A DNA stretch of 64,000 nucleotides from Modestobacter sp. VKM Ac-2982 (GTDB taxonomy: Bacteria > Actinomycetota > Actinomycetes > Mycobacteriales > Geodermatophilaceae), in assembly GCF_026967935.1 (NCBI RefSeq), contig NZ_JAPVBL010000005.1, positions 382,994-446,993 of the forward strand, written 5' to 3'. Under the pieces are notes generated by a model. It ran no database searches. It was not told the origin of the DNA and was given only the letters and a program-made list of their open reading frames with translations. Shown piece after piece: positions 18,606 through 39,934 of the stretch (its first letter is position 1; each line of letters starts with the position of its first letter). A program made the position numbers and the translations under genes.

Positions 18606-18641
18606 GAGCCGGCCACCGCACGCCGAGGCGGCGGCCGGCTC
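18606..18641. terminator. Terminator at the end of tadC
   Basis: 9-bp stem GAGCCGGCC/GGCCGGCTC (18606-18614 with 18633-18641), overlapping the tadC stop codon and serving both converging transcripts. Confidence 0.6.
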
Positions 18642-23813: not shown

Positions 23814-23822
23814 AGAGGGCCC

Positions 23823-24797
23823 CTATCGGATGAGTCGGAGGATGTTGGTGCCGAGCGCGGGCGCGTCGGAGCTGTAGCTGAAGGCCTCGGAGAGGTCGAC
23901 GAAGCGGGTGAAGTAGCCGCTCACGCACCGGTCGTTCCCGGAGCACGGCTTCGGGCTGGTGGAGAACTGGCCGCCGAAGTGGAAGCCGGTGAGCCGGAAG
24001 GCCGCGTAGCCGTAGACCCGGTACCACGCGTTGTTCCCCGTGCCGTCGTACTCGTCGAAGATCGGCAGGAGCACGGTCCGGTCGATCCACTGCGACACGT
24101 CCGCCGCGGAGCACGACGAGGGCGGGGTGTTGCCCGTCGAGGAGTACGAGCGCTGCTCGATGGCGCTCGCGACGCTGCACGTGCCCGTTTCGGTGTCCAG
24201 GTACCCGAACCCGCCCGGGACGAAGTTGCCCGAGGGGCCGGTGCAGGACATCGCGTCCGCGGTCCCCTTGGTCAAGGTGATCGTGTGCACGGTGGTCGCC
24301 GACGGCAGACCGCCGTGGGTCTGCCGCTCGAACTCGCACCACGAGAAGGTCAGCGGCAGCACCGCCGTGCCGGCGTCCGGGCTGCCCCAGCCGACGGTGG
24401 CCGAGGCGGTCACCCCCGTGGCGTCGTGCCCGATCACCGGCGCGAACCAGTGCTGCACCGGGGTGCTGCCGGTGACGCTGACGCTCAGCGGGTCGCTCGA
24501 CAGCACCGGCGGGGCGGCGCTGGCGTCGCCGTCGTTGGCTGCCACGACGGCCGAAGCTGTCGCGACCATGTCACCGCAGGCTCCGCGGGCGCAGTCCTGG
24601 GCGACGGCGAACGCGGCCGCGTCGGCCGCGACCTGGAGCCGGGCCCGCTCGGCGTAGAGCGCACCGACGTCGACCGCGATCGCGGCGAAGCCGAGCATCG
24701 GGACCATCAGCAGCGACAGCACGACGGCGGCGGCCCCGTGCTCGTCGCCGAGCCGGCGCGCCGTCCGGGAGGTGACCCGGGAGATCAGCCGTTGCAC
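23823..24797 (-). CDS. TadG-like pilus assembly protein
   Basis: 324 aa from GTG 24797, chosen because it gives a short overlap (13 bp) with tadE and puts the Tad_N motif near the N-terminus. Residues about 14-60 carry the TadE/G-type anchor (EHGAAAVVLSLLMVPMLGF) followed by AERARLQVAADAAAFAVAQD. The exported C-terminal 260 residues contain several Cys and aromatic repeats and no von Willebrand A domain that I can see. TadE/G proteins are minor pseudopilins needed for Flp pilus biogenesis. Confidence 0.82.
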   Translation of the reverse strand: MQRLISRVTSRTARRLGDEHGAAAVVLSLLMVPMLGFAAIAVDVGALYAERARLQVAADAAAFAVAQDCARGACGDMVATASAVVAANDGDASAAPPVLSSDPLSVSVTGSTPVQHWFAPVIGHDATGVTASATVGWGSPDAGTAVLPLTFSWCEFERQTHGGLPSATTVHTITLTKGTADAMSCTGPSGNFVPGGFGYLDTETGTCSVASAIEQRSYSSTGNTPPSSCSAADVSQWIDRTVLLPIFDEYDGTGNNAWYRVYGYAAFRLTGFHFGGQFSTSPKPCSGNDRCVSGYFTRFVDLSEAFSYSSDAPALGTNILRLIR

Positions 24798-25195
24798 CGC
24801 ATGACCCCCTTGGCGCTCAGGCTCAGACCCGAGCCGAAGAACCCGGTCAGGTAGGGCTTGGGGTAGCTGATGGTCACGCTCACGTACGTGCTGCTGCCGA
24901 TGCCGCCGAGAAGCGGGCACGACGCGGGCGTGATCGTGATCTGCGCGTCGGTGATGTCCGGGTCCAGCGTGGCGGCTGCACCGCGGACGGCGGTGCGGGC
25001 GGCGGCCTGGTCGTTCTGCAGGGCCATCGCCCGGGCGCCTTCACGGGCAGCCGCGGACAGCGTCCCCTGCACCGAGAAGGCGTGACCGAACTCGGCGATG
25101 CCGAGGACGAGCGTGATGAGCAGCGGGACGATCATCGCGAACTCCACCGCGCTCGCCCCGCGCTCGTCGCGCAGCCGGCGTCCGACCATGTCCAC
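24785..25195 (-). CDS. tadE: TadE-like minor pseudopilin
   Basis: 136 aa (M3 at 25189 is an alternative start). The N-terminus DERGASAVEFAMIVPLLITL is the TadE prepilin signal: cleavage after Gly with Glu at +5 and Phe at +6 of the mature form. A 20-residue hydrophobic helix follows, then a short exported beta-rich domain with one Cys pair. It is expected to be processed by a prepilin peptidase and to prime or cap Flp pili. First gene of the block after the flp terminator. Confidence 0.88.
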   Translation of the reverse strand: MDMVGRRLRDERGASAVEFAMIVPLLITLVLGIAEFGHAFSVQGTLSAAAREGARAMALQNDQAAARTAVRGAAATLDPDITDAQITITPASCPLLGGIGSSTYVSVTISYPKPYLTGFFGSGLSLSAKGVMRCNG

Positions 25196-25232
25196 CTCCT
25201 CATCCGTACGTCGTGGGTCTGCATGTGTGCAG

Positions 25233-25268
25233 CGGCGCGGCGGCCCCCCGGAGGAGGCCGCCGCGCCG
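25233..25268 (-). terminator. Attenuating hairpin between flp and tadE
   Basis: Perfect 13-bp stem CGGCGCGGCGGCC/GGCCGCCGCGCCG with a 10-nt loop, 32 bp after the flp stop. It probably lets most transcripts end after flp so that the major pilin is made in excess, with read-through supplying the assembly genes. Confidence 0.7.
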
Positions 25269-25299
25269 GGCAGCCGCTACTGGACTCAGGCGTGCAGGG

Positions 25300-25512
25300 T
25301 CAGGGCGTGACGGTCCCGCCGAGCTCCGTGGTGATGCTGGTGAAGAGGGTGTTCAGCTGACCACCGAGGGCGGTGACGGCGACGATGATCACGACGGCGA
25401 TCAGGCCGACCATCAGGCCGTACTCGACGGCGGTGGCGCCCTTCTCCTCCTTCTTGAGCCGGTCGGAGGCGACGGAGACGAGCGTGAACAGGGTCGTGTA
25501 GAGCTGGGTCAC
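25300..25512 (-). CDS. flp: Flp/Fap major pilin (type IVb)
   Basis: 70 aa, GTG start. Contains the Flp signature GATAVEYGL followed by a 20-residue hydrophobic helix; processing after Gly would leave ATAVEY with Glu+5 and Tyr+6 as in all Flp pilins. The mature protein would be about 46 aa. It is the structural subunit of the Tad pilus encoded downstream. The 63-70-bp leader holds a motility-type promoter (25582-25610). Confidence 0.93.
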   Translation of the reverse strand: MTQLYTTLFTLVSVASDRLKKEEKGATAVEYGLMVGLIAVVIIVAVTALGGQLNTLFTSITTELGGTVTP

Positions 25513-25581
25513 GAGGTGCTCCTCTGTGGGTCGTGCCGACTGGAGCGGGTCGGCTGACCCGTCCTCGCGGCTGCACCGAGA

Positions 25582-25610
25582 CCATCGAGTTCCGCCGGAG
25601 CGAACTTGAG
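25582..25610 (-). promoter_or_regulatory. FliA/WhiG-type promoter of flp
   Basis: Minus-strand sequence CTCAAG (25605-25610), 16 bp, then TCGATGG (25582-25588). The -35 element and spacing are identical to the pilA site and almost identical to the pilM site. It lies about 70 bp upstream of the flp start codon, so transcription would begin about 60 bp upstream. Confidence 0.6.
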
Positions 25611-25708
25611 CAACACCCCCCGTCCGGGGTACCGACGCCAGCCATCCGGGGAAGATCGCCGGAGACCGTCACGCAGCGTTGCGGTCCCCGCGCTCCGCGG
25701 GCGTTGTG

Positions 25709-26100
25709 TCAGGAGAACGGGAGTGCGACTCCCACAGGGGCCCCGAGCAGCAACAAGGCGCCGGCGGCGAGTGCGGGGAACACGATGCGGTCGGGCAGCA
25801 GCCGGTGCGGCAGGTCCACGACGGCCAGCAGCACGGCGACGACGGCGAGCAGCAGGAAGGCGGGCAGCTCCGCCGTCGGACCGATGCGCAGCGCGATCAG
25901 GCCGGCGAGCAGGCCGGTGGCCACCGCGAGGACCGGCGGGCGGACCGCGGCGCTCCCCGGGCCATGAGGTCGGCCGGTCGCGCGCCGGCCGACCAATGGA
26001 ACCGCCCGGCGACCCGGTTCACCAGTGCTCCGGCGAGCAGACCGAACGGCGAGGCGCCGACGGTGACCGCGGTCAGCGCGGGGTCACCGGACAGGCTCAC
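25709..26100 (-). pseudogene. Decayed A24 prepilin peptidase (TadV-like remnant)
   Basis: From GTG 26100 the first frame reads a peptidase-like N-terminus (GASPFGLLAGALVNRVAGRF, compare GAAVGSFLNVVIWRVP of PilD). Homology then continues in another frame from about 25990: VLAVATGLLAGLIALRIGP, ELPAFLLLAVVAVLLAVVDL and HRLLPDRIVFPALAAG align with the middle of PilD encoded at 29.7-30.4 kb. The zinc-binding CxxC pairs are missing. The frame stops at 25709 before the second catalytic Asp motif (GxGDxK), and I find no such motif in the following 190 bp. It sits just upstream of flp, where a TadV gene would be expected. Confidence 0.65.
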
Positions 26101-26179
26101 GGCGGCCACCCTGCACGCCGCCACTCCTGGACCCGGCAGGCCGGGAGCCCGCGCGTCCGGCCAGCTCACCGACCCCGGC

Positions 26180-26599
26180 TCAGTGCCCGGTCGGGCGGGG
26201 CGTCCCCGGCGCACCTGGACCGAGCAGCCGCTCGATGATGCGCCGGTCACCCGGCCAGGCGTCCAGCAGCACGTCCCGGGGCACCCGGCGGGCGGCGTAG
26301 CGCAGCGCCAGGGCGACCACCACGACGTCGTCCAGTGGCCCGATGACCGGCAGGAACTCCGGGATCAGGTCGATCGGCGAGAGCACCCACAGCCCGGCCA
26401 GCAACAGCGCCACCTTCGCCCGGCGCGGCACCGCAGGATGCCGGCGCAGCCGGCGGAGAGCGGTGGCGCAGGCGGGAAGGAACCGGGCCAGCTCCCGAGC
26501 CGTGCCCGGCGGCAGCGTGCGGGCCAGCAGCACGAGCACCGCCCAGCTGAGCAGGACGACGGCCACGGCGACGCCCACCCAGGTCAGCCAGCGCGTCAC
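26180..26599 (-). CDS. YkvA-family (DUF1232) membrane protein
   Basis: 139 aa from GTG 26599. One N-terminal transmembrane helix (residues 4-24), then the DUF1232 core: VPRRAKVALLLAGLWVLSPIDLIPEFLPVIG with the signature SPIDLIPE and LDDVVVVALALRYA. The family is widespread and of unknown biochemical function. The gene lies between the two pilus loci but has no obvious pilus role. Confidence 0.85.
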   Translation of the reverse strand: MTRWLTWVGVAVAVVLLSWAVLVLLARTLPPGTARELARFLPACATALRRLRRHPAVPRRAKVALLLAGLWVLSPIDLIPEFLPVIGPLDDVVVVALALRYAARRVPRDVLLDAWPGDRRIIERLLGPGAPGTPRPTGH

Positions 26600-26756
26600 C
26601 CGCGCAGTCTCCCAGCCCACCGCCCGACCGGGAGACCCGACCGCAGGGGTGGCCCAGGGGGACGGAGGCGGCTCGTGTGCCCTGTGGGGCGGCCGTGAGA
26701 CGACACGGTGCAGCAACCTGCGGGGAACTGCTGGACGGTCTGCCTACCGTCCGGCC

Positions 26757-26963
26757 ATGCGCCCGAAGCGACTCCCCCCGGTCCCCCAGCCGACCGCCCG
26801 CCTGCAGCAGCTGACGCTGATCGCCGCAGCCCGGGTGAGCGCCTGCCGGACGGCGTCCAGCCAGCAGATCACCGACATCGTGCGGGTCACGGTGGACGAC
26901 GAGGTGGACACCACCACGTTCCGGGCGATCGTCGCCGAGGTCGGCGGCGACGCCGCGCGCTGA
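26757..26963 (+). CDS. Small protein of unknown function
   Basis: 68 aa from ATG 26757, without a clear ribosome-binding site. Basic N-terminus, then LQQLTLIAAARVSACRTAS and an acidic DIVRVTVDDEVDTTTFRAIVAEV stretch that could fold as a small helical unit. I do not recognise a family. It is the only plus-strand candidate inside the pilus block. Confidence 0.4.
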   Translation: MRPKRLPPVPQPTARLQQLTLIAAARVSACRTASSQQITDIVRVTVDDEVDTTTFRAIVAEVGGDAAR

Positions 26964-27063
26964 CCGCCGGGCGTGTGGGCGCGACGCCCAGGTGGTGCGC
27001 GTCGGCGACGGTGCGCGCCCTCGGTCTCCTGGCCGGACTCTCGTGTCGACGGCGCCTGAGAAC

Positions 27064-27110
27064 TGACCCCCTCGCGACGGGCGCCTCAGGCCCGCGGCAC
27101 GAAGGGGTCA
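27064..27110. terminator. Bidirectional terminator after pilO
   Basis: 11-bp stem with one mismatch (TGACCCCCTCG 27064-27074 with CGAAGGGGTCA 27100-27110) around a 25-nt loop, between the small plus-strand ORF and the pilO stop. An alternative pairing of GGCGCCTGAG (about 27050) with a CTCAGGC segment in the loop is possible. Confidence 0.55.
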
Positions 27111-27136
27111 CGACCCGACGTCGGGAGGCGGCCGCC

Positions 27137-27814
27137 TCACTCGCCGGCGGCCGCCGTCGCGTCGCCGACCGTCGGGGCCATGGTGAAGGCGTACGTGGTG
27201 AACGACGCCTCCACGTCGCCGGTCGCCGTGGCGGGACGACCGCCACCGGCGATCGCCGCGTCCTGACTCGTGGCGGTGAGGCCCGAGATCAGCAGGAGGC
27301 GGTCAGTGCCGGTCTGCAGCTCGGAGACGAAGCTCTCCACGGCATCGGACGAGCCGATGACCGAGACGCTCACCTGCATGCTGAGGACGGCGACAGCCGG
27401 GGTGCTGCCGTCCGACACCGCGCCGGTGGTGCTGCCCTCCGCGCCCACGGCGGGTGCCGGCGCCTCCACCGGTACCGGTGTCGCCGTGGTGAGCTGGACG
27501 ATCGTCAGACCGGTGTTCTGAGCCGTCTCCTGCAGCCGGCGCGTGAGACCGGGGAGGTCCGCCTGGGCCGGGATGCTGGCTTGGAGACCGGCCAGCTCGG
27601 CGCGGTGCTCGTCGAGGTGCTCGAACTGGTCCGCCAGGCCGATGAGCGCGAGTTCCCGCGCATCGTTCTGGACCGTCAGGAGCTCGGCCGACTCGCGGAT
27701 CGAGGCGGTCTCGGCGCGGATGGGGTCCACGACCAGGAGCCAGCCTCCTGCCAGCACAGCCAGCCCGACGACAGCAGCGCCGGCGGCCCGCGATCTGTTG
27801 CTCAGCGTCGTCAC
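27137..27814 (-). CDS. pilO: Type IV pilus alignment protein PilO
   Basis: 225 aa. Bitopic: one N-terminal membrane helix (about 12-30), coiled coil (about 35-90), then the PilO/GspM-like ferredoxin fold. Between them is a low-complexity linker (ATPVPVEAPAPAVGAEGSTTG). With PilN and PilM it couples the cytoplasmic ATPases to the growing pilus. It starts 1 bp after pilN. Assignment rests on position and topology because PilO sequences diverge strongly. Confidence 0.82.
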   Translation of the reverse strand: MTTLSNRSRAAGAAVVGLAVLAGGWLLVVDPIRAETASIRESAELLTVQNDARELALIGLADQFEHLDEHRAELAGLQASIPAQADLPGLTRRLQETAQNTGLTIVQLTTATPVPVEAPAPAVGAEGSTTGAVSDGSTPAVAVLSMQVSVSVIGSSDAVESFVSELQTGTDRLLLISGLTATSQDAAIAGGGRPATATGDVEASFTTYAFTMAPTVGDATAAAGE

Positions 27815-27815
27815 C

Positions 27816-28484
27816 TCACTCCTCCCCGTCGTCGGTGAATCGGTCGGCGAGCGCCATCGAGTCGAACTCGACCATCGCGGACACCATGTAGTAGACGTCG
27901 CCCTGCGATTCGGTGATCGACGCCGTGCCGAACCATGGACTCGACAGACCCGGTACGGCCGCGAGCTGCTCGATCCAGGTGGCGCTGTCGGGCAGGCTCG
28001 CGGACCTGGCAGTGAACGTGATCGTGCCGGTCGGGCTAACCACGGTCGGATCCGAAGGGGCCTCGCTTCCCACGGTCGAGTTCACGGCGGCCGTCAGCGA
28101 CTCGATGGTCACGTTGTCGGGTGCGGTGGCAGCAATGGCGCGGAGGTAGGGCTGCCAGAGCACCTCCGTCTCGGTCACCTGCAGCCGCGCTGCCTCGATG
28201 GCGCGGATCTGCGTCAGCACCTCTGGCACCTCCGCGAACCTCTGCTGCTGAGCCGCGAGGTCCGCAGCTCTGGCCTCGACGACGGCGAGATCTGCTGTCG
28301 CCCGGTCCTGCTGGACCTCGGCGAGCACCCAGCCGGCCGCGCAGACGCTGATCGTGACGAGCAGCCCGAGCGCCAGCCACGCCCGCAGCTTGACGAACCG
28401 ACGCCTGGCCAGGACCTCGGGCGGGAGCAGGTTGACCTGAGGCAGCGCCTCCGGCCGGATCAGGGTGTCCGTGCCGCGGCTCAT
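27816..28484 (-). CDS. pilN: Type IV pilus assembly protein PilN
   Basis: 222 aa from ATG 28484, which overlaps the pilM stop (ATGA). The N-terminal cytoplasmic tail has the conserved VNLLPPEVLARR motif that docks into PilM (VNLLP). A single membrane helix (about 36-56), coiled coil (about 58-90) and a ferredoxin-like periplasmic-type domain follow. Partner of PilM and PilO. Confidence 0.9.
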   Translation of the reverse strand: MSRGTDTLIRPEALPQVNLLPPEVLARRRFVKLRAWLALGLLVTISVCAAGWVLAEVQQDRATADLAVVEARAADLAAQQQRFAEVPEVLTQIRAIEAARLQVTETEVLWQPYLRAIAATAPDNVTIESLTAAVNSTVGSEAPSDPTVVSPTGTITFTARSASLPDSATWIEQLAAVPGLSSPWFGTASITESQGDVYYMVSAMVEFDSMALADRFTDDGEE

Positions 28485-29533
28485 GACGCCACTCCCTGGG
28501 CGAGGCCGATCGACACTGCGAGTCGGTCGAGCTGGCCGGCGAGCGAACTCGCCAGCTCCGCGTCGACGTCCACCCACTCGAGCGGGTCGGCTATGGCGAC
28601 GGGCATCCGACTCTCGCTGGCCAGGCGCCGGCGGAACCCGCCCAGGTCCGCGCCACCACCGGTGAGGAGGGCGAGATCGATGCCGGCACCCGGATGCTGG
28701 CTCGCGTAGTACACGAAGGTGTTGCGGATCGACTCGACGAGGGAACGGGTCACCTCGCTGACCGCAGCGGTCGCCGGCTCACGGAGGCCGACTCCCGTCG
28801 GCACGGCGCCGATCCCGTGCCGTTCACCCGCCTCCACGGTCAGCCGCCCGGTGGCGACCGCATCGGCCGCCTCCATTCCCTCCGCGGCGATGATGCGGAC
28901 CAGTTTCGGGACACCTCGGGCCGCGACGAGCACCGTGGTGGCGCGCTCACCGATGTCGACCACCGCGACCGTCTGGTCCCGGCGGGCGCCGCGGATCAGC
29001 GCCCGCTGCAGCGCGAACGCGCTCAGATCGACCATCAGCGGACGGAGTCCGGCAGCCTCCACCGCCCGCAGGTTCGTGCCGACGGTGTCTCGGCGGGCGG
29101 CCACGAGCATGCCGCGGACCTGCCGGGCACCGCTGTGGGAGACCTCTTCGGTCGGGACGAAGTCGAGCAGCGCCTCGTCGACGGGCATGGGCAGCAGGTC
29201 CGCGACCTGGAACGGCAGTGACCGCTTCAGATCTGCCATCGGCATCCACGGCAGCTCGATCTCACGTACGACGATCCGCTGGTTGCCGACGCCGATGACG
29301 ACGTTCTTGGTGGTGAAGCCGGCTTGGGTCCAGAGCCGGCGCAGCGCGTCGGCCACGGCCTGGGTGTCGACCACCTCGCTGTCGTGGACCGAGCCGGGCG
29401 GCAGGTCGACGGCGCCGTAGCGGACCAGGGTGGCCCGGGCGTCGGCCTGCGGGCCCTCCTTGCCGAACTCCAGTTCGGCGCCGCGGACCTGGGTGGCCCC
29501 TAGGTCGAGTCCGACGACGTGGGTCCTTGCCAC
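28481..29533 (-). CDS. pilM: Type IV pilus actin-like protein PilM
   Basis: 350 aa from GTG 29533 with a GAGGGGAG ribosome-binding site. Actin/FtsA-like ATPase with VGLDLGATQVRGAELE (phosphate 1), VAVVDIGERATTVLVA (phosphate 2) and LALLTGGGADLGGF (adenosine) motifs. It forms the cytoplasmic ring that binds the PilN tail and contacts PilB and PilT. First gene of the pilMNO transcript, with its own motility-type promoter upstream. Confidence 0.93.
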   Translation of the reverse strand: MARTHVVGLDLGATQVRGAELEFGKEGPQADARATLVRYGAVDLPPGSVHDSEVVDTQAVADALRRLWTQAGFTTKNVVIGVGNQRIVVREIELPWMPMADLKRSLPFQVADLLPMPVDEALLDFVPTEEVSHSGARQVRGMLVAARRDTVGTNLRAVEAAGLRPLMVDLSAFALQRALIRGARRDQTVAVVDIGERATTVLVAARGVPKLVRIIAAEGMEAADAVATGRLTVEAGERHGIGAVPTGVGLREPATAAVSEVTRSLVESIRNTFVYYASQHPGAGIDLALLTGGGADLGGFRRRLASESRMPVAIADPLEWVDVDAELASSLAGQLDRLAVSIGLAQGVAS

Positions 29534-29607
29534 TCGCACTCCCCTCTGACCACGTGCGGTGACGTGGTTCCCGCGAAGGACGAAGAACCGGTCACGTCGC
29601 ACTCTCT

Positions 29608-29636
29608 CTATCGGATGTGCCGGCCCCGAACTTGAC
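29608..29636 (-). promoter_or_regulatory. FliA/WhiG-type promoter of pilMNO
   Basis: Minus-strand GTCAAG (29631-29636), 16 bp, then CCGATAG (29608-29614); the TTCG after the -35 element is also shared with the flp site. It lies in the 137-bp gap between pilD and pilM, about 75 bp from the pilM start. Confidence 0.6.
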
Positions 29637-29670
29637 CTGCGCGCGCCTGCAGATCGGGTGGGGCACCACG

Positions 29671-30450
29671 TCACATCAGCACCCCGAGGTAGGCCTGCCA
29701 CAGCTGCTCGCCCGCGAGCGATCCGACGGCGCTGCCGGCGAGCATCCAGGGACCGAAGGGAATGCCCGACGTCCGTACCGCACGGCCGGTGAGCAGGAGT
29801 CCGACGGCGAAGGCGCCGCCGAGCAGGAAGGCCGCGAAGGAACCGACCACGAGCGGGCCCCAGCCCAGCCACGCCAGGTACATCCCGAGCAGGCCCGCGA
29901 GCTTGACGTCGCCGAACCCCATGCCGCCCGGCTTGGCGACCGCGAGCAGGAAGTACGCCGAGAACAGCAGCCCCCCTCCGGCGGCGGCCCGGACGAGGCT
30001 CCCGAGGTCGCCCTCGACGAGGGAGGCGCCGACGAGCAGGACGCCGCCGACACCGTAGGACGGCAGGACGAGGACGTCGGGCAGCCGGTGCGTGTCCAGG
30101 TCGATCAGGGCGAGCGCCAGGCCGACCGCGGCCAGGTAGAGGAAGGCCGGCAGCTCCGGCACGAGTCCGAACCGCCATCCCACCAGGAGGAAGAGGCCGA
30201 CCGTCGCCGCCTCGACCAGCGGGTAGCGGACGGCGATCGGCGTGGCGCAGTCCCGGCACCGTCCCCGCAGCAGCATCCACGAGAGGACCGGGACGTTGTC
30301 GCGGACCCGGATCGGGCTGTCGCAGCGTGGACATGCGCTCGGTGGCGCAACCACCGATCGGCTCACCGGCACCCGCCAGATCACGACGTTGAGGAACGAC
30401 CCGACCGCGGCGCCCAGGAGGGCCAGGAACACGAGCAGGAGTGCGGTCAC
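29671..30450 (-). CDS. pilD: Prepilin peptidase / N-methyltransferase
   Basis: 259 aa polytopic aspartic protease of the A24 family. The N-terminal cytoplasmic loop has the two zinc-binding pairs CPRC and CRDC. Catalytic Asp motifs are LIDLDTHRLPD and GGMGFGDVKL. Both domains are complete, so it should cleave and methylate PilA and the minor pilins. Because the only other peptidase-like sequence in the window is decayed, it may also have to process the Flp pilin, or another peptidase outside the window does. It overlaps the pilX-like gene by 4 bp. Confidence 0.95.
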   Translation of the reverse strand: MTALLLVFLALLGAAVGSFLNVVIWRVPVSRSVVAPPSACPRCDSPIRVRDNVPVLSWMLLRGRCRDCATPIAVRYPLVEAATVGLFLLVGWRFGLVPELPAFLYLAAVGLALALIDLDTHRLPDVLVLPSYGVGGVLLVGASLVEGDLGSLVRAAAGGGLLFSAYFLLAVAKPGGMGFGDVKLAGLLGMYLAWLGWGPLVVGSFAAFLLGGAFAVGLLLTGRAVRTSGIPFGPWMLAGSAVGSLAGEQLWQAYLGVLM

Positions 30451-32354
30451 GTCGTCTTCACGTAGCTGGGTGTCTTGATCTCACCGCTGTACTTCAGCGC
30501 CCACTGGGAGTTCGCCCAGCGCGGGAAGAACGGCGGCGCGGCGTCCTTCAGGCGGGCGTCGTAGAGGTAGTCCTTGTCGTAGCCGCTGCCGTTGGTCGTC
30601 GAGGCCGGTCCTCGCCAGCGTTGGGCGATGGACCCGTTCACCCGCAGCACACCCTTGCCCGGACCATCCGCCCAGCTCTGCACGAGAAAGCTGTGCTGGA
30701 GGGTCTGGATGGACGCGGCGATCTGGAGGCCCGTGGACGGGTTGTTGGCTCCGGTCGCCGGGTCGGCCACCCGCGTGGGCCACGTGCCCTCCGCGTCATA
30801 CCTGCCGGCGCCGGCCTCGCCTTCGTCCCGCGGGTCACCCCACTGCCAGCTGCTGCAGCTCCACCACGAGCACTGCTGCTGGGAGTTGACGGTGACGAGG
30901 CGGGGGTGCATCACCTCCACCGTGTTGGTCGCCACCAGGCCGACCATGTCGTTCCCATTGGGCCCGCCGGCGAGGACCAGGTCACCGGCGACGACGACGG
31001 ACTGTGCCGCCGCGATCGTGACGCGCCCCTTGACGACGCCCTGGACGTAGACGTTGCCCTCGCCGCAGTACTTCTCTGGGCGGGCCATCTGGATGTCGTA
31101 GGTGTAGGACTGGTTCCCGGCGGTAGGCGTGGTGCGGGTGCTGGCGGCGAAGGTCCCCAACGGCAGTTGCTCGTTGCTGGGCCCACCGATGCTGTCGGCG
31201 TAGCACTGGCGCCGGGGCACGCTGGCCGGCGCGCCGTCGACGTAGATCACCATGTCCGACGCCACGGGAACGGTGGCGCCGCCGCTGCTCGCCAGCGCCG
31301 TGCCGGTTCCGCAGTTCGGCGTTCCCCCCGTGGGCGAGGCGACCGCGAGGACGAGGCCGGCGACCGCGGAGTCCTTGCTCCAGACCGTCATGGTGGCGTT
31401 CGAGTTGAAGATCACCCGGGTCGCCCCGTGGTAGTGGCACCCCGGCAGTTCCCTGAACATCGCCGAGTTGTCCGGCAGGTACACGGGGTTGGCGTACGAC
31501 GGCGCCTGCCCGAAGGTCGCGGTCGATCCGCTGGCGGCGAACGTGCTCCCGCTGCGCAGGCACCGGTTCCAGGTGCTCGGGGTGCCCGCGACGACACCCT
31601 GGCAGCCGGGGTCGGCCGACTCGATGCCCGACGAGAAGCGCCCCCCGACACTGAGCACCGAGTCGTTGGTGAACAGGCGGCCGTCCAGGACGTCACCGGC
31701 GGCGAACTGGATCTCCGTGCAACCCGAGCGGCCCTGCCAGTGGTACTTCGCCGAGCTGCTCCCGTTCGCGCCGCACTCGGTCCGCGTCGTCCCACTGAGC
31801 GCGGGGTCCATGGACTCGAAGTCGGTGTAGTAGAGGTAGTCGGTCGAGCCACCCTTGCCGACGGCCACCTCGATCGTGCGGTACACGCCGTTCACCCGCC
31901 CCGTGGAGGTGACCCGGACGGTGCCCTCGGCGTCCTGCTTGCTGCCGTCGACGCTGTAGTGGAAGTACCCCGCAGCGTTGGTGGTGTCGCGCACGTCGAC
32001 CGGCAGCCAGTCGGCGGCGGTCGCCGTCGTCCACCCGCAGGTGTTGGCGGTGGTGGTCCGTCCCTTCAGGGCCCGGTTCGAGCAGTCGACCGTCCGCGCG
32101 TAGGCGTCATCGCGGTTCAACCGCGAGAGGTAGTCGTCCACCCCTGCCTGGGCCGCTGTGATCGCACCGGAATGGTCCTGGGTCCGGCGCGAGAAGTCCT
32201 GGCTCGGGATCGCATAGGCCAACACGGCGGTCAGCATGAGAGCAAGAACGAGCATGCCCGACACCACGAAGATCATCGCGACGCCGGCGTCGGACTCCCG
32301 GATCGTTCCCCGCCCGGCGCCAGCACCGCCGGTGTCGGGCCCGTTGACGCTCAT
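30447..32354 (-). CDS. Large PilX-like minor pilin candidate
   Basis: 635 aa. Residues about 24-48 (GVAMIFVVSGMLVLALMLTAVL) resemble a processed pilin helix but have Phe instead of the conserved Glu at +5. Loss of Glu+5 is a mark of tip-located pseudopilins such as GspK and many PilX proteins. The remaining roughly 585 residues are exported, beta-rich, Ser/Thr/Gly-rich, with many Cys and a late VYVQGVVKGRVTIAAAQSVV segment recalling stacked-strand folds. I do not recognise a named domain. It overlaps pilW-like (ATGA) and pilD (4 bp), so it is tightly coupled to pilin processing genes. Confidence 0.75.
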   Translation of the reverse strand: MSVNGPDTGGAGAGRGTIRESDAGVAMIFVVSGMLVLALMLTAVLAYAIPSQDFSRRTQDHSGAITAAQAGVDDYLSRLNRDDAYARTVDCSNRALKGRTTTANTCGWTTATAADWLPVDVRDTTNAAGYFHYSVDGSKQDAEGTVRVTSTGRVNGVYRTIEVAVGKGGSTDYLYYTDFESMDPALSGTTRTECGANGSSSAKYHWQGRSGCTEIQFAAGDVLDGRLFTNDSVLSVGGRFSSGIESADPGCQGVVAGTPSTWNRCLRSGSTFAASGSTATFGQAPSYANPVYLPDNSAMFRELPGCHYHGATRVIFNSNATMTVWSKDSAVAGLVLAVASPTGGTPNCGTGTALASSGGATVPVASDMVIYVDGAPASVPRRQCYADSIGGPSNEQLPLGTFAASTRTTPTAGNQSYTYDIQMARPEKYCGEGNVYVQGVVKGRVTIAAAQSVVVAGDLVLAGGPNGNDMVGLVATNTVEVMHPRLVTVNSQQQCSWWSCSSWQWGDPRDEGEAGAGRYDAEGTWPTRVADPATGANNPSTGLQIAASIQTLQHSFLVQSWADGPGKGVLRVNGSIAQRWRGPASTTNGSGYDKDYLYDARLKDAAPPFFPRWANSQWALKYSGEIKTPSYVKTT

Positions 32355-33094
32355 GACCCTTCCTGCTGCTGCACGAACAGTGCTTGTGCGTTCGGCAGCA
32401 GGACGCGCTGGATGAAGGTGGTGTCACCCCGGGCGCTGGGGCTCGTCCCGACGACCCGCAGGGAGAGCTCGACCGCGACGATCGCCTCACGTTGGGTCGA
32501 GGACAAGGTGCTGCCCGCCAGGGCGGCCCCGGCAGCGTCGAGGTAGCTGAACAGCGGAACCGTGCCGTCGGTGCGCACGCCGCTCGCGAGGAGCCGCGTG
32601 CTCCTGCGCGCAGCACAGGCGCTGTCGGCGGTGGTGCAGAACTGGTAGCCACCTGCCCCGGGCGTCGCCGAGTCCGGCCGCTGGACGACCTCCGTCAGCT
32701 GGCCGGCCGTCGTCCCACTCGTCGCGACGGCATAGCTGACCTTGCGGGGGCCGGCGTTGTTCCCGGTGTTGTCCAGGTTCGAGTAGAGGACGACCGAGTA
32801 TCCGGAGGCGCTCACCACAGCCGGCTCGGCCGTGCACCCGGCGCAGCTCGACAGCAGCTGGCTCTGCCGAACGGCCGAACGCAGGCTGCGGGCCATCACC
32901 TCGACCGAGTTGCGCGCGGTGTTCACCTGGTCCAGACGGGCCTCGTTGCGGGCGCTCGTGCGTCCCACGCCGGCGATCAGCGTGACGGTCGCCGCCATGA
33001 CGAGGCTGGCCACGAAGATGCTGACCATGAGCTCGACCAGCGTCACGCCCTCCTCGCCCCGCAGCGCGGCGCTCCGGCGCGGGCCCCGGCTCAC
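32351..33094 (-). CDS. PilW-like minor pilin
   Basis: 247 aa from GTG 33094 (GTGA overlap with the upstream gene). Class III prepilin signal EEGVTLVELMVS with Glu at +5, then a long hydrophobic helix and the helix-1 extension ARNEARLDQVNTARNSVEVMARSLR. The C-terminal domain contains a CAGC and a further CTTADSAC pair that could form disulfides. Expected to be processed by PilD and to sit at or near the pilus tip. Confidence 0.85.
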   Translation of the reverse strand: MSRGPRRSAALRGEEGVTLVELMVSIFVASLVMAATVTLIAGVGRTSARNEARLDQVNTARNSVEVMARSLRSAVRQSQLLSSCAGCTAEPAVVSASGYSVVLYSNLDNTGNNAGPRKVSYAVATSGTTAGQLTEVVQRPDSATPGAGGYQFCTTADSACAARRSTRLLASGVRTDGTVPLFSYLDAAGAALAGSTLSSTQREAIVAVELSLRVVGTSPSARGDTTFIQRVLLPNAQALFVQQQEGS

Positions 33095-35010
33095 GGCCCC
33101 ACCGAGTTGTTGGACCCGGCCCCGTTGAGGGTGAGCGGACCGTTCACGCCGACGACGACCGTCCCGCGGAACGAGCAGGAGCCCATCCAGCCGGACTTCG
33201 ACCACTCGTAGATCTTCCAGGTCCCCTGCGGGAGGTTTCCGGTCACCGTGGTGCTGCTCCTGGTCGTCGGGGACGGGCTGCCCCACGAGTCGGTCCGGTT
33301 CTGTGTGGCACCGTCGACCCGGTACGAGTAGTAGTAGGTGCTGCCGAGCCGCTGGCAGCTGATGGTGCTCGGCGCCGCGACCAGGTAGCGCGCCAGCGCC
33401 ACCCCGGTCACCCGCACCTCGACCTGGGGCGTCTCCCACGTCTGCACGGTCGGGTAGCCGTACCGCACCGTCACGACTCCCGCGCTGGGACAGGCGGCGC
33501 CCACCGCAGGTCCGCCACCCGACGCCGGTGCGGCGAACACGTACCAGTCACCCGCGGGCAGCGGGACGGGGCCGACGGCCGCTGCGGTCCCGTCGCCGAG
33601 CTCGACCGCCAGGCTGGCCGGCGACGGCACCTGGCAGGAACCGGTGGCGGCGGTGGCGGACACTGCCCAGATCGCCCCGGCGCCGGTCGGCACGTTCGTC
33701 AGCTGCAGCGTCGACGCAGCCCAGGCCAGTGCGGGGTTCGGGCCGGGCTCGAGCGGGATGTCCCCCGGACCCTGCGCGCAGCCGAAGGCGGCGCCCTGAG
33801 CGAAGAAGGACCAGTTACCGGGTGGCAGTGAGCCCGCCGTCGGGTCGACGGTCCGGGCGCGAGGGCTGCTGCACCCGGACGTGTCGTCGGCCGGCACGGC
33901 GAGGACGGTCCCGCCGGGAGGCGCGTCGGTGACCGTGAACTGGGCGAACGCGTACGCCACGGTGAGGGTGGCGGCACCGCCGGCCGGCACCTCGGCGAGC
34001 GGCAGGTCGGCCGGCTGCGTCGACCCGAGGTATGCCCCGTACTTCGCCGGCCAGAGGTCGGTCAGCTGCATCGTCAGGCCGGTCAACGGCTGTTGGACGA
34101 CGGAGGTGGACCCGGTGTTCTGCGAGCTGTAGATGCTCAGCTCCATGCCTGCGACGTCCTCCGCCGTCACACCTGCGCCGGTCACCTGGACAGTGAGGGA
34201 GCCCGACCGGTCGTAGGTCATCGGGGTCACGGCGATCAGCTGGCCCTGCTGCACCGTGCCGACACTCTTGCTGGGCTCGGCCACCCCGGCGACGTCCACG
34301 TGGCCGGCGGCATGGAGGCTCACCGTGTACTCGGCCCCGCCGGCCGGTGGGGTGACCGGAACGGTGGCACATCCGGAGGTGTCCGTGAGCCCAGTGCGTG
34401 TCTCGCTGCCCGAGGTCACCGTGACCGGGATTCCCGCGTTGCCCGCGCCGGTGGCGTCGACGACGGAGACAGCCACGTAGGAGGCCACCGTCGACAGGCT
34501 GGACGCCTTCGTCGGCGCGAGGACCGTGCTGTTGGTGACCGGGCGAACCGATCCCATGTTCGGCCACGTCACCCTGGTCGTGACGATCAGCGTCGGGTAC
34601 CTGACGAGCGACCCGCCCTCGCAGGCGGACGAGCCGGTCCCCGTCAGACTCCACCGGCTGCTCCGCGTGACCGTGTAGCCCACGGAGTCGACGACGAGCG
34701 GGCTTCCGGCCGTGCCGCCGGCCAGGGGGTGGGGATTGGTGACCGACCCCTCGTCGGCCAGCCGGCGGGGGCCGTCGACCGAGGCGTTGAACTGCTGGCG
34801 GACGATGTCGAGTTCGCGGGCGGCCAGGTTCGTGGCCGCCACGCGGTTGCGGTCGTTGACCGATGATCTCTGGGCAGCGAAGAGGATCCCGAGGGCCGCC
34901 GTGGAGAGGACGGCGAGGAGGACCGCAGCGACGATGACCTCGACGAGGGTGAAGCCGCGCTCGTCGCCCAAGGGCAGGCGGCGCCGCCGGCTCGTCGCCG
35001 TGTCACTCAT
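33091..35010 (-). CDS. Very large PilV-like pilin with C-terminal beta-sandwich domains
   Basis: 639 aa from ATG 35010, three to four times the length of normal minor pilins. The class III signal DERGFTLVEVIVAAVLL is intact (cleavage after Gly, Glu at +5). After the pilin stalk (to about 130) come exported beta-rich modules. One reads NAGIPVTVTSGSETRTGLTD followed by SGCATVPVTPPAGG, like a carboxypeptidase-regulatory/Ig-type fold common in actinobacterial adhesins. Later segments repeat a PAG-x-W-x-x-F/V pattern (PPGNWSFFAQ, PAGDWYVFAA, PQGTWKIYEW), suggesting three related repeats. Likely a tip adhesin. Confidence 0.8.
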   Translation of the reverse strand: MSDTATSRRRRLPLGDERGFTLVEVIVAAVLLAVLSTAALGILFAAQRSSVNDRNRVAATNLAARELDIVRQQFNASVDGPRRLADEGSVTNPHPLAGGTAGSPLVVDSVGYTVTRSSRWSLTGTGSSACEGGSLVRYPTLIVTTRVTWPNMGSVRPVTNSTVLAPTKASSLSTVASYVAVSVVDATGAGNAGIPVTVTSGSETRTGLTDTSGCATVPVTPPAGGAEYTVSLHAAGHVDVAGVAEPSKSVGTVQQGQLIAVTPMTYDRSGSLTVQVTGAGVTAEDVAGMELSIYSSQNTGSTSVVQQPLTGLTMQLTDLWPAKYGAYLGSTQPADLPLAEVPAGGAATLTVAYAFAQFTVTDAPPGGTVLAVPADDTSGCSSPRARTVDPTAGSLPPGNWSFFAQGAAFGCAQGPGDIPLEPGPNPALAWAASTLQLTNVPTGAGAIWAVSATAATGSCQVPSPASLAVELGDGTAAAVGPVPLPAGDWYVFAAPASGGGPAVGAACPSAGVVTVRYGYPTVQTWETPQVEVRVTGVALARYLVAAPSTISCQRLGSTYYYSYRVDGATQNRTDSWGSPSPTTRSSTTVTGNLPQGTWKIYEWSKSGWMGSCSFRGTVVVGVNGPLTLNGAGSNNSVGP

Positions 35011-35056
35011 CCGAGGCTCCTCCCCTGGCCGGTTCCGTTGCTCCTGACGTGCTGAA

Positions 35057-35090
35057 GGTGGGGCGAGGGGGTCGTCCCCGTCGCCCCACC
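35057..35090 (-). terminator. Attenuating hairpin after pilA
   Basis: Stem of about 14 bp with one mismatch (35057-35070 with 35076-35090), core GGTGGGGCGA/TCGCCCCACC, placed between pilA and the large minor-pilin gene. Same arrangement as the hairpin after flp. Confidence 0.65.
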
Positions 35091-35111
35091 CGTCCCGGCT
35101 GCGAACTCCGG

Positions 35112-35537
35112 TCAGCTGCAGTCGGCGCTCGTCTTCTGCTGGATGCCTGCTGCGGCGCTGGCCTTGAACGAGCCCGTGCCCTTGGTGCTCTTGATGCAGA
35201 ACGACCACGTCTCGGCCGTGGCTGTCGTCCCGATCCCGGACACCAGGCTCACGTTGGGGCTCACGTTGTTCGTCACCACGCCGCCGACGGTCCACTGGCC
35301 ACCGGTCTGCGCAAGGGCCGGAACGGTGGTGTTGTCGACGTACCAGGTGGCGACCTCGGTGGCGAGCACCTTGGTGTCCGATTCGGCGGCCGCGTTCTGG
35401 GCCTTCTTCTGCTGGTTGAGATAGACGGGAATTGCGATGGCCGCGAGGATCCCGATGATGACGACGACCACGAGAAGCTCGATCAGGGTGAACCCCTTCT
35501 CCTTCTCGTTGCTGGACACGCGGATCTGAGTGACCAC
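35112..35537 (-). CDS. pilA: Type IV major pilin PilA
   Basis: 141 aa, GTG start at 35537 with GGGAG upstream. Type IVa prepilin: 14-residue charged leader, cleavage site KEKG/FTLIELLVVVVIIGILA with Glu at +5, then the long amphipathic helix. The C-terminal domain is small (about 90 aa) and carries a likely disulfide between the Cys in WSFCIKS and the penultimate Cys. Major structural subunit. Transcribed from its own motility-type promoter and followed by a hairpin, consistent with high, separate expression. Confidence 0.93.
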   Translation of the reverse strand: MVTQIRVSSNEKEKGFTLIELLVVVVIIGILAAIAIPVYLNQQKKAQNAAAESDTKVLATEVATWYVDNTTVPALAQTGGQWTVGGVVTNNVSPNVSLVSGIGTTATAETWSFCIKSTKGTGSFKASAAAGIQQKTSADCS

Positions 35538-35613
35538 TGAAAGGCTCCCATGCGGGTTGGTGTATGCGTCGGTGTGACCCGCCGGGAACCTTCTTGTGTC
35601 CCGACTGACATCG

Positions 35614-35642
35614 CTATCGACTCGGGAGATGTCGGGCTTGAG
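35614..35642 (-). promoter_or_regulatory. FliA/WhiG-type promoter of pilA
   Basis: Minus-strand CTCAAG (35637-35642), 16 bp, then TCGATAG (35614-35620), in the 152-bp gap between pilC and pilA, about 77 bp from the GTG start. Confidence 0.62.
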
Positions 35643-35689
35643 CACTTTCGGGTGAACATTCTCCGGGTCCCTCGATGTGGTGACGGCAG

Positions 35690-36955
35690 TCAGGACATGA
35701 CGTTGAAGATCTCGAAGATCGGCAGATAGAGCGCCACGATGATCGAACCGATCAGCGCGCCGAGAATGGCGATCATGAGCGGCTCGATGAGCGAAGTGAG
35801 CTGCTCGGTGGTCGCCTCCACCTCGGCGTCGTAGAACTCGGCGATCTTCTCCATCATCTGGTCCAGTGCCCCCGTGTCCTCGCCGACGGACATGAGCTGG
35901 ACCACCATGGGCGGGAACACCGGGTGATTCGACAATGGGCCGGTCAGCGGCAGCCCCGTCCGCACGGACTCGCCCACGTCGTCGACGGCCCGCTCGATCA
36001 CGACATTGCCGCTGGTCTGGCCGACGATCTCCAGCGCCTGGAGAATCGGGACGCCGGCGCCGAGCATCGTCCCGAAGTTCCTGCTGAACCGGGCGACGGC
36101 GACCTTGCGGAAGAGTTGGCCGAACACCGGCAGCTTCAGTTTCAACGGGTCGAGGGCGTTGCGGACCGCGCTGTCGTTCTTGTGCCTGCGCCACCAGAGC
36201 CCGCCGGCGACGGCCACCAGCAGGAGCACGGGGGCGGCCCACGTCATGACCTCGGACAGGACGACCAGGAACTGTGTGGGCCAGGGGAGCGCGCTGTCGA
36301 AGCCGGCGAACATGTCCTCGAAGATCGGCACGATGAAGAGCAGCATGCCGATCACGGCGAGGATCGCGAAGGTGAAGACCACGATGGGATAGGTCATCGC
36401 CGACTTGATCTTCCCGCGCAACTTCGTCTCGGCCTCGAAGTTCTTGGCCAGCGACTCGAGTGCCTGGTCGAGGAAGCCGCCGATCTCGCCGGCCCTGATC
36501 ATGTTCAGCATGAGGGGCGGGAAGATCTCCGGGTGTGCGCCGAATGCTGCCGACAGGGCGGTGCCCTTCTCCACGTCGTCGCGCACCTGCTGCAACACCC
36601 GGGCGAGCTTCTTGTTCTCCGTCTGCTCGGCGAGCACGCCCAAGGAGCGCAGCAGCGTCAGGCCCGCGCCGATCATCGTCGACAACTGGCGCGCCATGAC
36701 CGCCAGGGCCTTGAGTTCCACGCGCTCGCCGAGGCCCGGGATGGAGATCTCGCGCTGCAGCCCGCTGACCTTGACCTCCCGCACATCGATCGGCGTGAGG
36801 CCTCGCGCGCGCAGCCGGTTCCCGACGGCGGACTGGCTGACCGCGTCGATCCGTCCCTTGACCAACCGGCCGGACGAGTTGCGGACCGTGTACTCGTAGG
36901 TCTTCGGGGTGGGGGCCGTGGTGTCCGCCCCGGGCACGCCGGTCGTCGTCGCCAC
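35690..36955 (-). CDS. pilC: Type IV pilus platform protein PilC
   Basis: 421 aa, GTG start 2 bp after pilT. Two type II secretion F domains (about 85-205 and 285-410) separated by membrane helices (about 180-200, 235-255), and a final helix near 385-410. Motifs LSTMIGAGLTLLRSL and GTMLGAGVPILQALEI are the two paired F-domain signatures. It is the inner-membrane rotor acted on by PilB and PilT. The first 60 residues resemble the usual PilC N-terminal strand (YEYTVRNSSGRLVKG). Confidence 0.95.
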   Translation of the reverse strand: MATTTGVPGADTTAPTPKTYEYTVRNSSGRLVKGRIDAVSQSAVGNRLRARGLTPIDVREVKVSGLQREISIPGLGERVELKALAVMARQLSTMIGAGLTLLRSLGVLAEQTENKKLARVLQQVRDDVEKGTALSAAFGAHPEIFPPLMLNMIRAGEIGGFLDQALESLAKNFEAETKLRGKIKSAMTYPIVVFTFAILAVIGMLLFIVPIFEDMFAGFDSALPWPTQFLVVLSEVMTWAAPVLLLVAVAGGLWWRRHKNDSAVRNALDPLKLKLPVFGQLFRKVAVARFSRNFGTMLGAGVPILQALEIVGQTSGNVVIERAVDDVGESVRTGLPLTGPLSNHPVFPPMVVQLMSVGEDTGALDQMMEKIAEFYDAEVEATTEQLTSLIEPLMIAILGALIGSIIVALYLPIFEIFNVMS

Positions 36956-36957
36956 GA

Positions 36958-38124
36958 TCAGGTCCCCGGAACGAAAGCGGAATGGCGGGTGTCGCCGCGG
37001 GAGAGAGGGATGCGCGACAGGGGGGACCGCCCGGTCAGGCGCGTGAAGTCGTCGGCATTGCGGCAGGTGTCCAGCCCGGTCTCGAACGTGATGTGCCCTG
37101 CCGACACGAGCTTGGCCAGCTGCTGGTCCATGGTGGTCATGCCCCAGTCAGCCCCCGCCTGCATCGCCGAGTAGATCTGATGGGACTTGCCTTCGCGGAT
37201 GAGGTTGCGGATCGCGGGCGTGGCGACCAGCACCTCGGCTGCCACGACTCGGCCAGTACCGTCGGCGCGCCGGCACAGGGACTGGCACACGACCCCCTGC
37301 AGCGAGCCGGCGAGCTGGGCCCGCACCTGCTGCTGCTGATGGGCCGGGAAGACGTCGATGACGCGGTTGATGGTCTGTGCGGCGTCCTGGGTGTGCAGGC
37401 TCGCCAGGACCAGGTGGCCGGTCTCCGCCGCGGTCAGCGCCACGGAGATGGTCTCCAGGTCGCGCATCTCGCCCAGCAGGATGATGTCGGGATCCTGGCG
37501 GAGCACGTGCCGGAGCGCGGCACCGAAGGAGTGGGTGTCCGACCCGACCTCACGCTGGTTCACCAGGGATCTCGCGTGCCGGTGCATGAACTCGATCGGG
37601 TCCTCGATCGTCATGATGTGGTCCGCGCGGGTCCGGTTGGCGAGATCGATGAGGGACGCGAGCGTCGTGGACTTGCCGGATCCGGTCGGTCCCGTGACGA
37701 GGACGAGCCCGCGCGGAAGGCCGGCGAAGGTGTGCACCACCGACGGGAGGCCCAACTCCTCGAGCGGCTTGATCTCGTTCGGCACGGCGCGGATCGCGGC
37801 GCCCACCGAGTCGCGCTGCCGGTACACGTTGACCCGGAACCGGCCCACGCCGCGCAGCGCGTGGGCGAAGTCCAGCTCGAGCTCAGCCTCGAACTTCGCA
37901 CGCTGCTGCTGGTCGAGCACGCTGTAGAGGGTTCGCTGGATCACCGCCGAGGTCAGGACCGGCAGGCTCGTCAGCGGGTGGAGGGTGCCGTGGATCCGGA
38001 CAACGGGTGGCGAGCCGGCGGTCAGGTGCAGGTCGGATGCGCCGGACGCGACCAGGTGCCGCAGCGCCGCGTCGAGGTCGATGTCACCGGCCTCGGGGTG
38101 GGTGTCGCCGGGTGTCTCGCTCAC
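36958..38124 (-). CDS. pilT: Type IV pilus retraction ATPase PilT
   Basis: 388 aa from GTG 38124 (AGGAG 8 bp upstream; GTG 38130 is in frame). Walker A GPTGSGKST starts at residue 145. Asp box TIEDPIEF, Walker B DIILLGEMRDLETI and His box HTQDA follow. The PilT-specific AIRNLIREGK motif, needed for retraction, is intact. Its presence indicates that the pilus can retract, so twitching or DNA uptake is possible. Between pilB and pilC in one operon. Confidence 0.95.
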   Translation of the reverse strand: MSETPGDTHPEAGDIDLDAALRHLVASGASDLHLTAGSPPVVRIHGTLHPLTSLPVLTSAVIQRTLYSVLDQQQRAKFEAELELDFAHALRGVGRFRVNVYRQRDSVGAAIRAVPNEIKPLEELGLPSVVHTFAGLPRGLVLVTGPTGSGKSTTLASLIDLANRTRADHIMTIEDPIEFMHRHARSLVNQREVGSDTHSFGAALRHVLRQDPDIILLGEMRDLETISVALTAAETGHLVLASLHTQDAAQTINRVIDVFPAHQQQQVRAQLAGSLQGVVCQSLCRRADGTGRVVAAEVLVATPAIRNLIREGKSHQIYSAMQAGADWGMTTMDQQLAKLVSAGHITFETGLDTCRNADDFTRLTGRSPLSRIPLSRGDTRHSAFVPGT

Positions 38125-38200
38125 GTGCACGTCTCCTGTCCCTCGCCGCGCGCGGTCGGGCCACGCCGTCCACCGGTCGATGATCGATCCCTCACCTGTT

Positions 38201-39877: not shown

Positions 39878-39934
39878 CAGTCCCCCGTGGATCCTGAGCC
39901 GGCCGCGCACGTGCGCACCGCTCGCTCCACTGCC

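Follow-up and report, generated by a model that had tools for sequence, protein, structure and literature searches.

Which sigma factor switches on the two pilus systems encoded in a 64,000-nucleotide stretch of Modestobacter sp. VKM Ac-2982 (contig NZ_JAPVBL010000005.1, positions 382,994 to 446,993; hereafter the window)? The question is raised by three minus-strand sites of one layout, one before flp of a Tad (type IVb) pilus locus and the others before pilM and pilA of a type IVa pilus (T4P) locus (Table 1). We consider it probable that these sites are sigma-28 (FliA/WhiG)-family promoters, most likely read by WhiG, and that they place the T4P, the Tad pilus, and the flagellar flbD-mot operon under common control. 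A preliminary description of this DNA had proposed that one motility-type sigma factor drives both pili; its shared promoter was supported by an element before flbD and by the co-occurrence of the pilM site with sigma genes, and the sigma factor in question was refined to WhiG, which appears likelier than the FliA-type sigma encoded among the flagellar genes.

The sequences of all three sites, and the layout ascribed to them, were confirmed at their positions; the sites end 69, 74, and 76 nucleotides (nt) ahead of the starts of flp, pilM, and pilA, respectively, and the names given to these genes were upheld by Pfam. Within the window, TCAAG occurs 52 times and TCAAG-N16-YCGAT solely at the three sites. 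In the genome of 4.78 Mb, STCAAG-N16-YCGATRG was found three times, each time at one of these sites, and its reversed control was not found at all, a post hoc comparison because the pattern was derived from the sites. A matrix was therefore of value that excluded the window sites and was built from 12 sites of other genomes (8 before flp and 4 before pilM; one of the 13 typed training sites, from L086 and 28 nt long, was dropped). With this matrix, the flp, pilA, and pilM sites scored 21.6, 20.0, and 17.3, ranking first to third in the window ahead of a next best score of 14.5. Because the flp site of the window is orthologous to the flp sites used for training, its score is less independent than those of pilA and pilM.

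Regarding the published sigma-28 consensus, the -35 element reads TCAA at all three sites and thus shares three of four letters with TAAA; TCAA is also the usual -35 at the flbD and flagellin genes of the family. The spacer is 16 nt throughout, in line with the approximately 15-16 nt between TAAA and GCCGATAA, and the CGAT core of the -10 element is present in each site, with 4/8 (flp), 6/8 (pilM), and 6/8 (pilA) letters of GCCGATAA matched by a hand count. The local consensus of these predicted promoters is CTCAAG-N16-(C/T)CGAT(G/A). Known from sequence, a two-block element with fixed spacing could also bind a regulator that activates or represses pilus and motor genes; nevertheless, we regard such an operator as very unlikely because neither block repeats the other, and because the spacing, the likeness to the flagellar consensus, the placement 33-94 nt before gene starts, and the co-occurrence with FliA/WhiG sigma genes described below all fit a promoter.

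The element recurs in the T4P loci of relatives. An alignment of PilM against named genomes yielded 229 loci, of which 80 were kept and 78 were scoreable (L203 and L216 were dropped for missing upstream sequence), representing 77 distinct genomes, as L262 and L258 belong to one genome. The region upstream of pilM scored at least 13 in 47 of the 78 loci, and offset controls did so in 1/80, 0/71, and 2/78. One of the 47 positives, L240, lies on the same contig as the entries G089 and G138, and its pilM site is a training site. In an earlier set of 15 genomes, four pilM loci carried CTCAAG-N16-[CTG]CGAT and became training sites, and one carried a version with a 15-nt spacer. Across 95 T4P loci (1.5 Mb), 92 sites scored at least 16.5, five of these rows being the four training sites and a second copy of one of them. 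Seventy-three preceded pil genes, counted as a distance of -20 to 220 nt to the start of a gene whose product is related to a pil protein of the window (pilM 39, pilA 13, minor pilin 8, pilB 6, pilT-like 6, and PilX-like 1), and the other 19 did not fall in this range.

In front of flp, the element was present in 10 of 27 scoreable loci, including that of the window, and in none of 27 coding-region controls. These loci were obtained from 36 matches in 57 genomes; 30 loci were kept, and three of these (L093, L095, and L107) were dropped because upstream sequence was missing. Since eight of the ten were training sites, first picked out by eye and with a simple pattern, the count is descriptive and does not serve as a test of the element. 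In each of the ten cases, the flp copy shares at least 59% identity with the query. A wider survey of 38 genomes picked from the named loci gave 16 matches in 11 genomes, two of the loci being short; the only convincing site was in G138, which is the same as G089, and weak ones were found at two other copies (11.4 and 13.3). The idea that the flp site occurs only together with a T4P was considered and rejected, as genomes of the same genus without a PilM match keep the flp site.

PilM was detected in 0/22 other genomes of the genus and 1/34 other genomes of the family, and the nearest named PilM proteins (50-56%) are those of Cellulomonas, Actinotalea, and one Actinomycetales metagenome-assembled genome (MAG). 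Considering this patchiness and the place of the nearest relatives elsewhere, the T4P cluster was probably gained by transfer or kept by few members, and its promoters appear to fit the resident sigma. The surveys also bear on chance resemblance among three GC-rich upstream regions. Such an explanation could appeal to a strict pattern that was drawn from the sites themselves and to a genome without an excess at two mismatches, but it is extremely improbable, given that the element occupies the same place in other genera and families, that offset controls are nearly empty, and that the spacers have diverged.

The genome of the window is flagellated, with four flagellin-domain matches on contig C8, and the same element precedes one of its flagellar operons. 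Its flbD gene has CTCAAG-N16-CCGATGA 65 nt before the GTG start and is followed by MotA- and MotB-like open reading frames (ORFs), as read from the sequence. FlbD was matched in 58 of 97 genomes of the family and order; 30 loci were kept and 29 were scoreable (L162 was too short), and a matrix site of at least 10 was found upstream of flbD in 29/29 and one of at least 13 in 24/29. The background for these counts was taken from shuffled T4P loci, with 155 sites of at least 9 per 543946 bases, or approximately 0.06 per 220 nt. The form N16-YCGA was present at 24/29 flbD loci and N16-YCGT at 0/29. In contrast, N16-YCGT was found in 16/20 and N16-YCGA in 0/20 flagellin upstream regions, which have the -35 element CTCAAG/GTCAAG and the 16-nt spacer in common with the pilus sites. 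The 20 flagellin regions were chosen by hand (16 belong to the window's family, 4 do not), and the four without a match are the four from outside. Identity in the spacers is just 0.37-0.41 at flp, flbD, and the flagellin genes, against 0.90-1.00 in the motif columns, the latter partly by construction of the search; hence, the element stays while its surroundings drift. Together with two paralogous sigma factors in the genome, the two -10 classes suggest a division of labour.

Other candidate targets emerged when the genome was searched for CTCAAG-N15..17-YCGAT, which gave 18 matches versus 8 in the control. Ten were inside called ORFs, and the eight intergenic ones preceded flp, pilA (identified from the earlier reading, as the script called no ORF there), flbD, a CheB gene, a NarL-type regulator, and a 111-aa ORF, with two having no called gene. 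Regarding cheB (CheB model, 420 bits), the called ATG overlaps the -10 of the match, and, thus, the site could act as the cheB promoter only with a start codon further downstream; in the product, the receiver domain begins at residue 25. A regulator very similar to the NarL-type one, encoded elsewhere in the genome, has TTCAAG-N16-TCCGATGG upstream.

Which member of the family reads the sites was approached through the distribution of sigma genes. The genome carries a WhiG gene (contig C1, 1371768-1372616; 389.7 bits with the equivalog model NF004935, cut-off 343), located between XerC-like and M23-peptidase-like genes, the names of which were read from the sequence. In the 77 distinct genomes of the scoreable pilM loci, a FliA/WhiG-family sigma (TIGR02479 at an E-value of 1e-38) was present in 41 of the 47 genomes that carry the pilM site (site-positive) and in 7 of the 30 that lack it (site-negative; Fisher p of 2e-8, with kinship ignored). 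According to our own score split (above 250 bits, WhiG-type; 140-196 bits, FliA-type), 22 of the 41 sigma-bearing positives had WhiG-type only (one of them a 204-bit fragment), 15 had both, and 4 had FliA-type only; several of these genomes are MAGs, so that absences of a sigma are soft. Among the seven sigma-bearing site-negative genomes, four had a weaker copy detected by a relaxed pattern, one (L232) had a copy detected by eye, and another (L255) had sites before pilB and pilA.

The same promoters could instead be read by the FliA-type sigma of the flagellar cluster. Such a gene, a divergent one, is present in the genome of the window (contig C8, 783544-784203; TIGR02479, 150.8 bits, below the cut-off of 189.6; 152 bits in a separate comparison), and the flagellar flbD operon shares the -10 class of the pilus sites. 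In addition, G074 and G086 (L073 and L077), in which no flagellin match was obtained and no WhiG-type sigma was found, have a FliA-type gene 7-8 kb from pilM, as if dedicated to the pilus; in G086, this gene is approximately 8 kb from pilM, and CTCAAG-N15-CCGATGG precedes pilB. However, the 22 WhiG-only genomes keep the pilM site, even if several are MAGs that may miss genes. G089, with two WhiG-type sigmas and without flagellin, FlbD, or FliA-type matches, keeps sites at pilM (20.5) and at one flp copy (16.6), and the flagellin genes, the expected targets of FliA, have the other -10. On these three grounds, FliA as the sole reader was judged less likely, and we regard a FliA-type reader as rather unlikely, with a probability well below that of WhiG. 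We infer that the three sites are transcribed and that their reader is WhiG, not the FliA-type sigma. WhiG appears the likelier reader in this lineage because WhiG-only genomes and G089 keep the sites, and a FliA-type sigma may take this role elsewhere, as suggested by G074 and G086.

Several findings weigh against assigning the three sites to WhiG or to this promoter family at all. The genome also encodes the FliA-type sigma within the flagellar cluster, four site-positive genomes have FliA-type only (one of them a fragment), and a TIGR02479 sigma was not found in 6 of the 47 site-positive genomes. Among the 30 site-negative genomes, we take at least 19 to be Microbacteriaceae, in none of which a TIGR02479 match was obtained, so that the association between sigma and site rests on few independent lineages. 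The flbD operon, although flagellar, falls into the -10 class of the pili. Our confidence in the reading with WhiG was slightly reduced, and that in a FliA-type reader slightly raised, because of the predominance of one family among the site-negative genomes and this position of flbD. The element is also far from universal: neither pattern was found in 10 of the 15 pilM loci of the earlier set, and, at a score of 10, no site was found before 17 of the 27 scoreable flp genes, namely, four copies at or above 59% identity and all 13 below it. When two mismatches were allowed, STCAAG-N16-CCGATAG gave 70 matches in the genome versus 88 in the control, and, therefore, only near-consensus sites are meaningful. 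Furthermore, the sites exceed the two total mismatches to TAAA...GCCGATAA allowed in the published definition, as given in the available passages, with five at flp, three at pilA, and three at pilM.

With WhiG as the reader, RNA polymerase carrying this sigma would bind the three sites and start pilA and pilM of the T4P as well as the flp-led Tad operon. WhiG would also start the flagellar flbD-motA operon and possibly cheB, which would join appendage and motor genes in one programme. A switch of RsiG and cyclic di-GMP (c-di-GMP) may set the activity of WhiG, and, on the sequence data at hand, one switch would probably turn on several surface appendages together.

The preliminary description had supposed that control of this kind was undescribed for actinobacteria; however, WhiG and the T4P in Rubrobacter, and T4P together with flagellar genes in Actinoplanes, already appear in passages of a published study (PMC8325347). 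For Rubrobacter, the promoters reported in the T4P cluster are predicted to be WhiG-dependent and have mapped starts, which resembles the present locus in that several predicted WhiG-type promoters occur per T4P cluster in an actinobacterium with WhiG (PMC8325347). The Rubrobacter consensus is TAAA/GCCGATAA and its extra targets are diguanylate cyclase and phosphodiesterase genes, whereas the sites here follow CTCAAG-N16-CCGAT and additionally precede flp, flbD, and possibly cheB; the words tad and flp are absent from the text of that paper as available (PMC8325347). In Actinoplanes, WhiG-like sigma factors direct T4P and flagellar genes, and the zoospore FliA-family sigmas of Actinoplanes missouriensis likewise serve both gene sets with one sigma family; unlike the present case, they concern zoospore motility in a sporangial organism, and the passages available contain no Tad pilus (PMC8325347). 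RsiG was recorded in 16/16 Geodermatophilaceae (PMC8325347). Another study found tad genes in all Geodermatophilaceae genomes examined, and its available passages do not mention their control (PMC9686282).

The Tad side has its nearest counterpart in Bdellovibrio, the TAD (flp1-flp2) operon of which is under the control of FliA, a flagellar sigma, as tested with Escherichia coli reporters; that organism is a Gram-negative predator, the sigma is FliA and not WhiG, and, in the passages available, pilA is among the genes not regulated by FliA (PMC5430801). The WhiG of the window's genome is the same sigma as that of Streptomyces by the equivalog model. In Streptomyces, it is described in the available text as a dedicated sporulation factor, whereas the targets predicted here are appendage and motility genes (PMC8325347).

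No paper placing Tad and T4P under one FliA/WhiG sigma in an actinobacterium was among the matches listed from the open-licence PMC literature. As far as searched, three aspects are new: a Tad pilus and a T4P of a single actinobacterium under one predicted WhiG-type promoter class, the wide occurrence of the pilM site with its association with sigma genes, and the two -10 classes. These provide a testable map of the role of WhiG outside Streptomyces, in a family in which c-di-GMP may gate it. They lead to the expectation that both types of pilus are switched in concert with a flagellar motor operon and that the -10 letters separate two paralogous sigma factors. In addition, the motif CTCAAG-N16-CCGAT may help to locate operons for pili and motility in actinobacterial genomes that lack annotation. 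More tentatively, and with somewhat less than even confidence, we propose that WhiG is at heart an appendage sigma, which would turn on the T4P in most non-Streptomyces actinomycetes with both WhiG and a T4P and, in some, also the Tad pilus and the flbD-motor operon. In flagellated lineages that have a second, FliA-type sigma, the regulon might be divided by two altered letters in the -10 (CCGAT for WhiG, CCGTA for FliA) with the same -35 and spacer length; sporulation would be a later use, and T4P clusters could move between genomes along with their promoters and come under the control of the resident WhiG immediately.

The genes behind the three sites are collected in Table 1. The Tad locus (18640-25512, minus strand) contains flp and TadE/G, RcpC, TadZ-, TadA-, TadB-, and TadC-like genes, all of which were found with Pfam (TadE, Tad, RcpC, AAA_31, T2SSE, and T2SSF twice), the further Tad letters being assigned from gene order. 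The T4P locus (27137-39910, minus strand) contains pilA, pilB, pilC, pilD, and pilM, also all found with Pfam. The PilO match reached 20.1 bits, under the 22-bit cut-off, and no Pfam family was matched by the pilN-like ORF or by the PilX-like ORF (30447-32354).

Table 1. Predicted promoters and pilus genes in the window.
Feature	Position	Strand	Basis or remark
flp promoter (predicted): -35 CTCAAG, 16-nt spacer, -10 TCGATGG	25582-25610	-	Before flp GTG (25512); layout also in flp loci of relatives
pilM promoter (predicted): -35 GTCAAG, 16-nt spacer, -10 CCGATAG	29608-29636	-	Before pilM GTG (29533); layout also in pilM loci of relatives
pilA promoter (predicted): -35 CTCAAG, 16-nt spacer, -10 TCGATAG	35614-35642	-	Before pilA GTG (35537); PilA relatives elsewhere with sites
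flp, Flp/Fap pilin of the Tad cluster	25300-25512	-	Pfam PF04964 (Flp_Fap), 64.0 bits
Remaining Tad cluster: TadE, TadG-like, RcpC/CpaB, TadZ-like ATPase, TadA-like ATPase, TadB, TadC	18640-25195	-	Pfam
pilM	28481-29533	-	Pfam PilM_2, 126.4 bits
pilN-like and pilO-like genes, 3' of pilM	27137-28577	-	Named by position
pilA, type IV pilin, GTG start 35537	35112-35537	-	N_methyl, 37.8 bits; frame and stop read
Minor pilins, PilX-like ORF, and prepilin peptidase PilD, between pilA and pilM	29671-35295	-	Pfam N_methyl, A24_N_bact, Peptidase_A24
pilC, pilT-like, and pilB (MshEN domain)	35690-39910	-	Pfam T2SSF, T2SSE, MshEN

The MshEN domain binds c-di-GMP in other systems, and that of PilB (38201-39910, minus strand; 76.7 bits) would add a second point of control by this molecule. 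Two very similar NarL-type response regulators (L129:5369-6187 on G000:C1 and L120:1545-2282 on G000:C8) each have a WhiG-type site upstream; their receiver region looks atypical by eye and is reminiscent of WhiI of Streptomyces, which is a target of WhiG there.

The flp leader contains an inverted repeat, CGGGTC-loop-GACCCG (25546-25561, minus strand), between the promoter and the ribosome-binding site. By eye, the repeat recurs in most of 24 aligned leaders, with the promoter motif present or absent, and shows apparent compensating changes; the stem was recovered by alifold, and the region had no family near the gathering score in Rfam. The repeat could be an RNA hairpin or an operator. Upstream of flp, a tad-type prepilin peptidase gene (approximately 25630-26250, minus strand) looks broken, being split over frames and lacking the GDVK-type segment. 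It also looks broken in G021 and G005 and has an open frame in G004, G003, G011, G007, and G033. Replacement of this decayed peptidase by the T4P PilD was considered and found unsupported, as G021 and G005, with their likewise broken-looking gene, gave no match to PilM. A DUF1232 gene (26180-26716, minus strand) lies between pilO and the peptidase remnant and, judged by sequence, is also located upstream of flp in G021 and G005.

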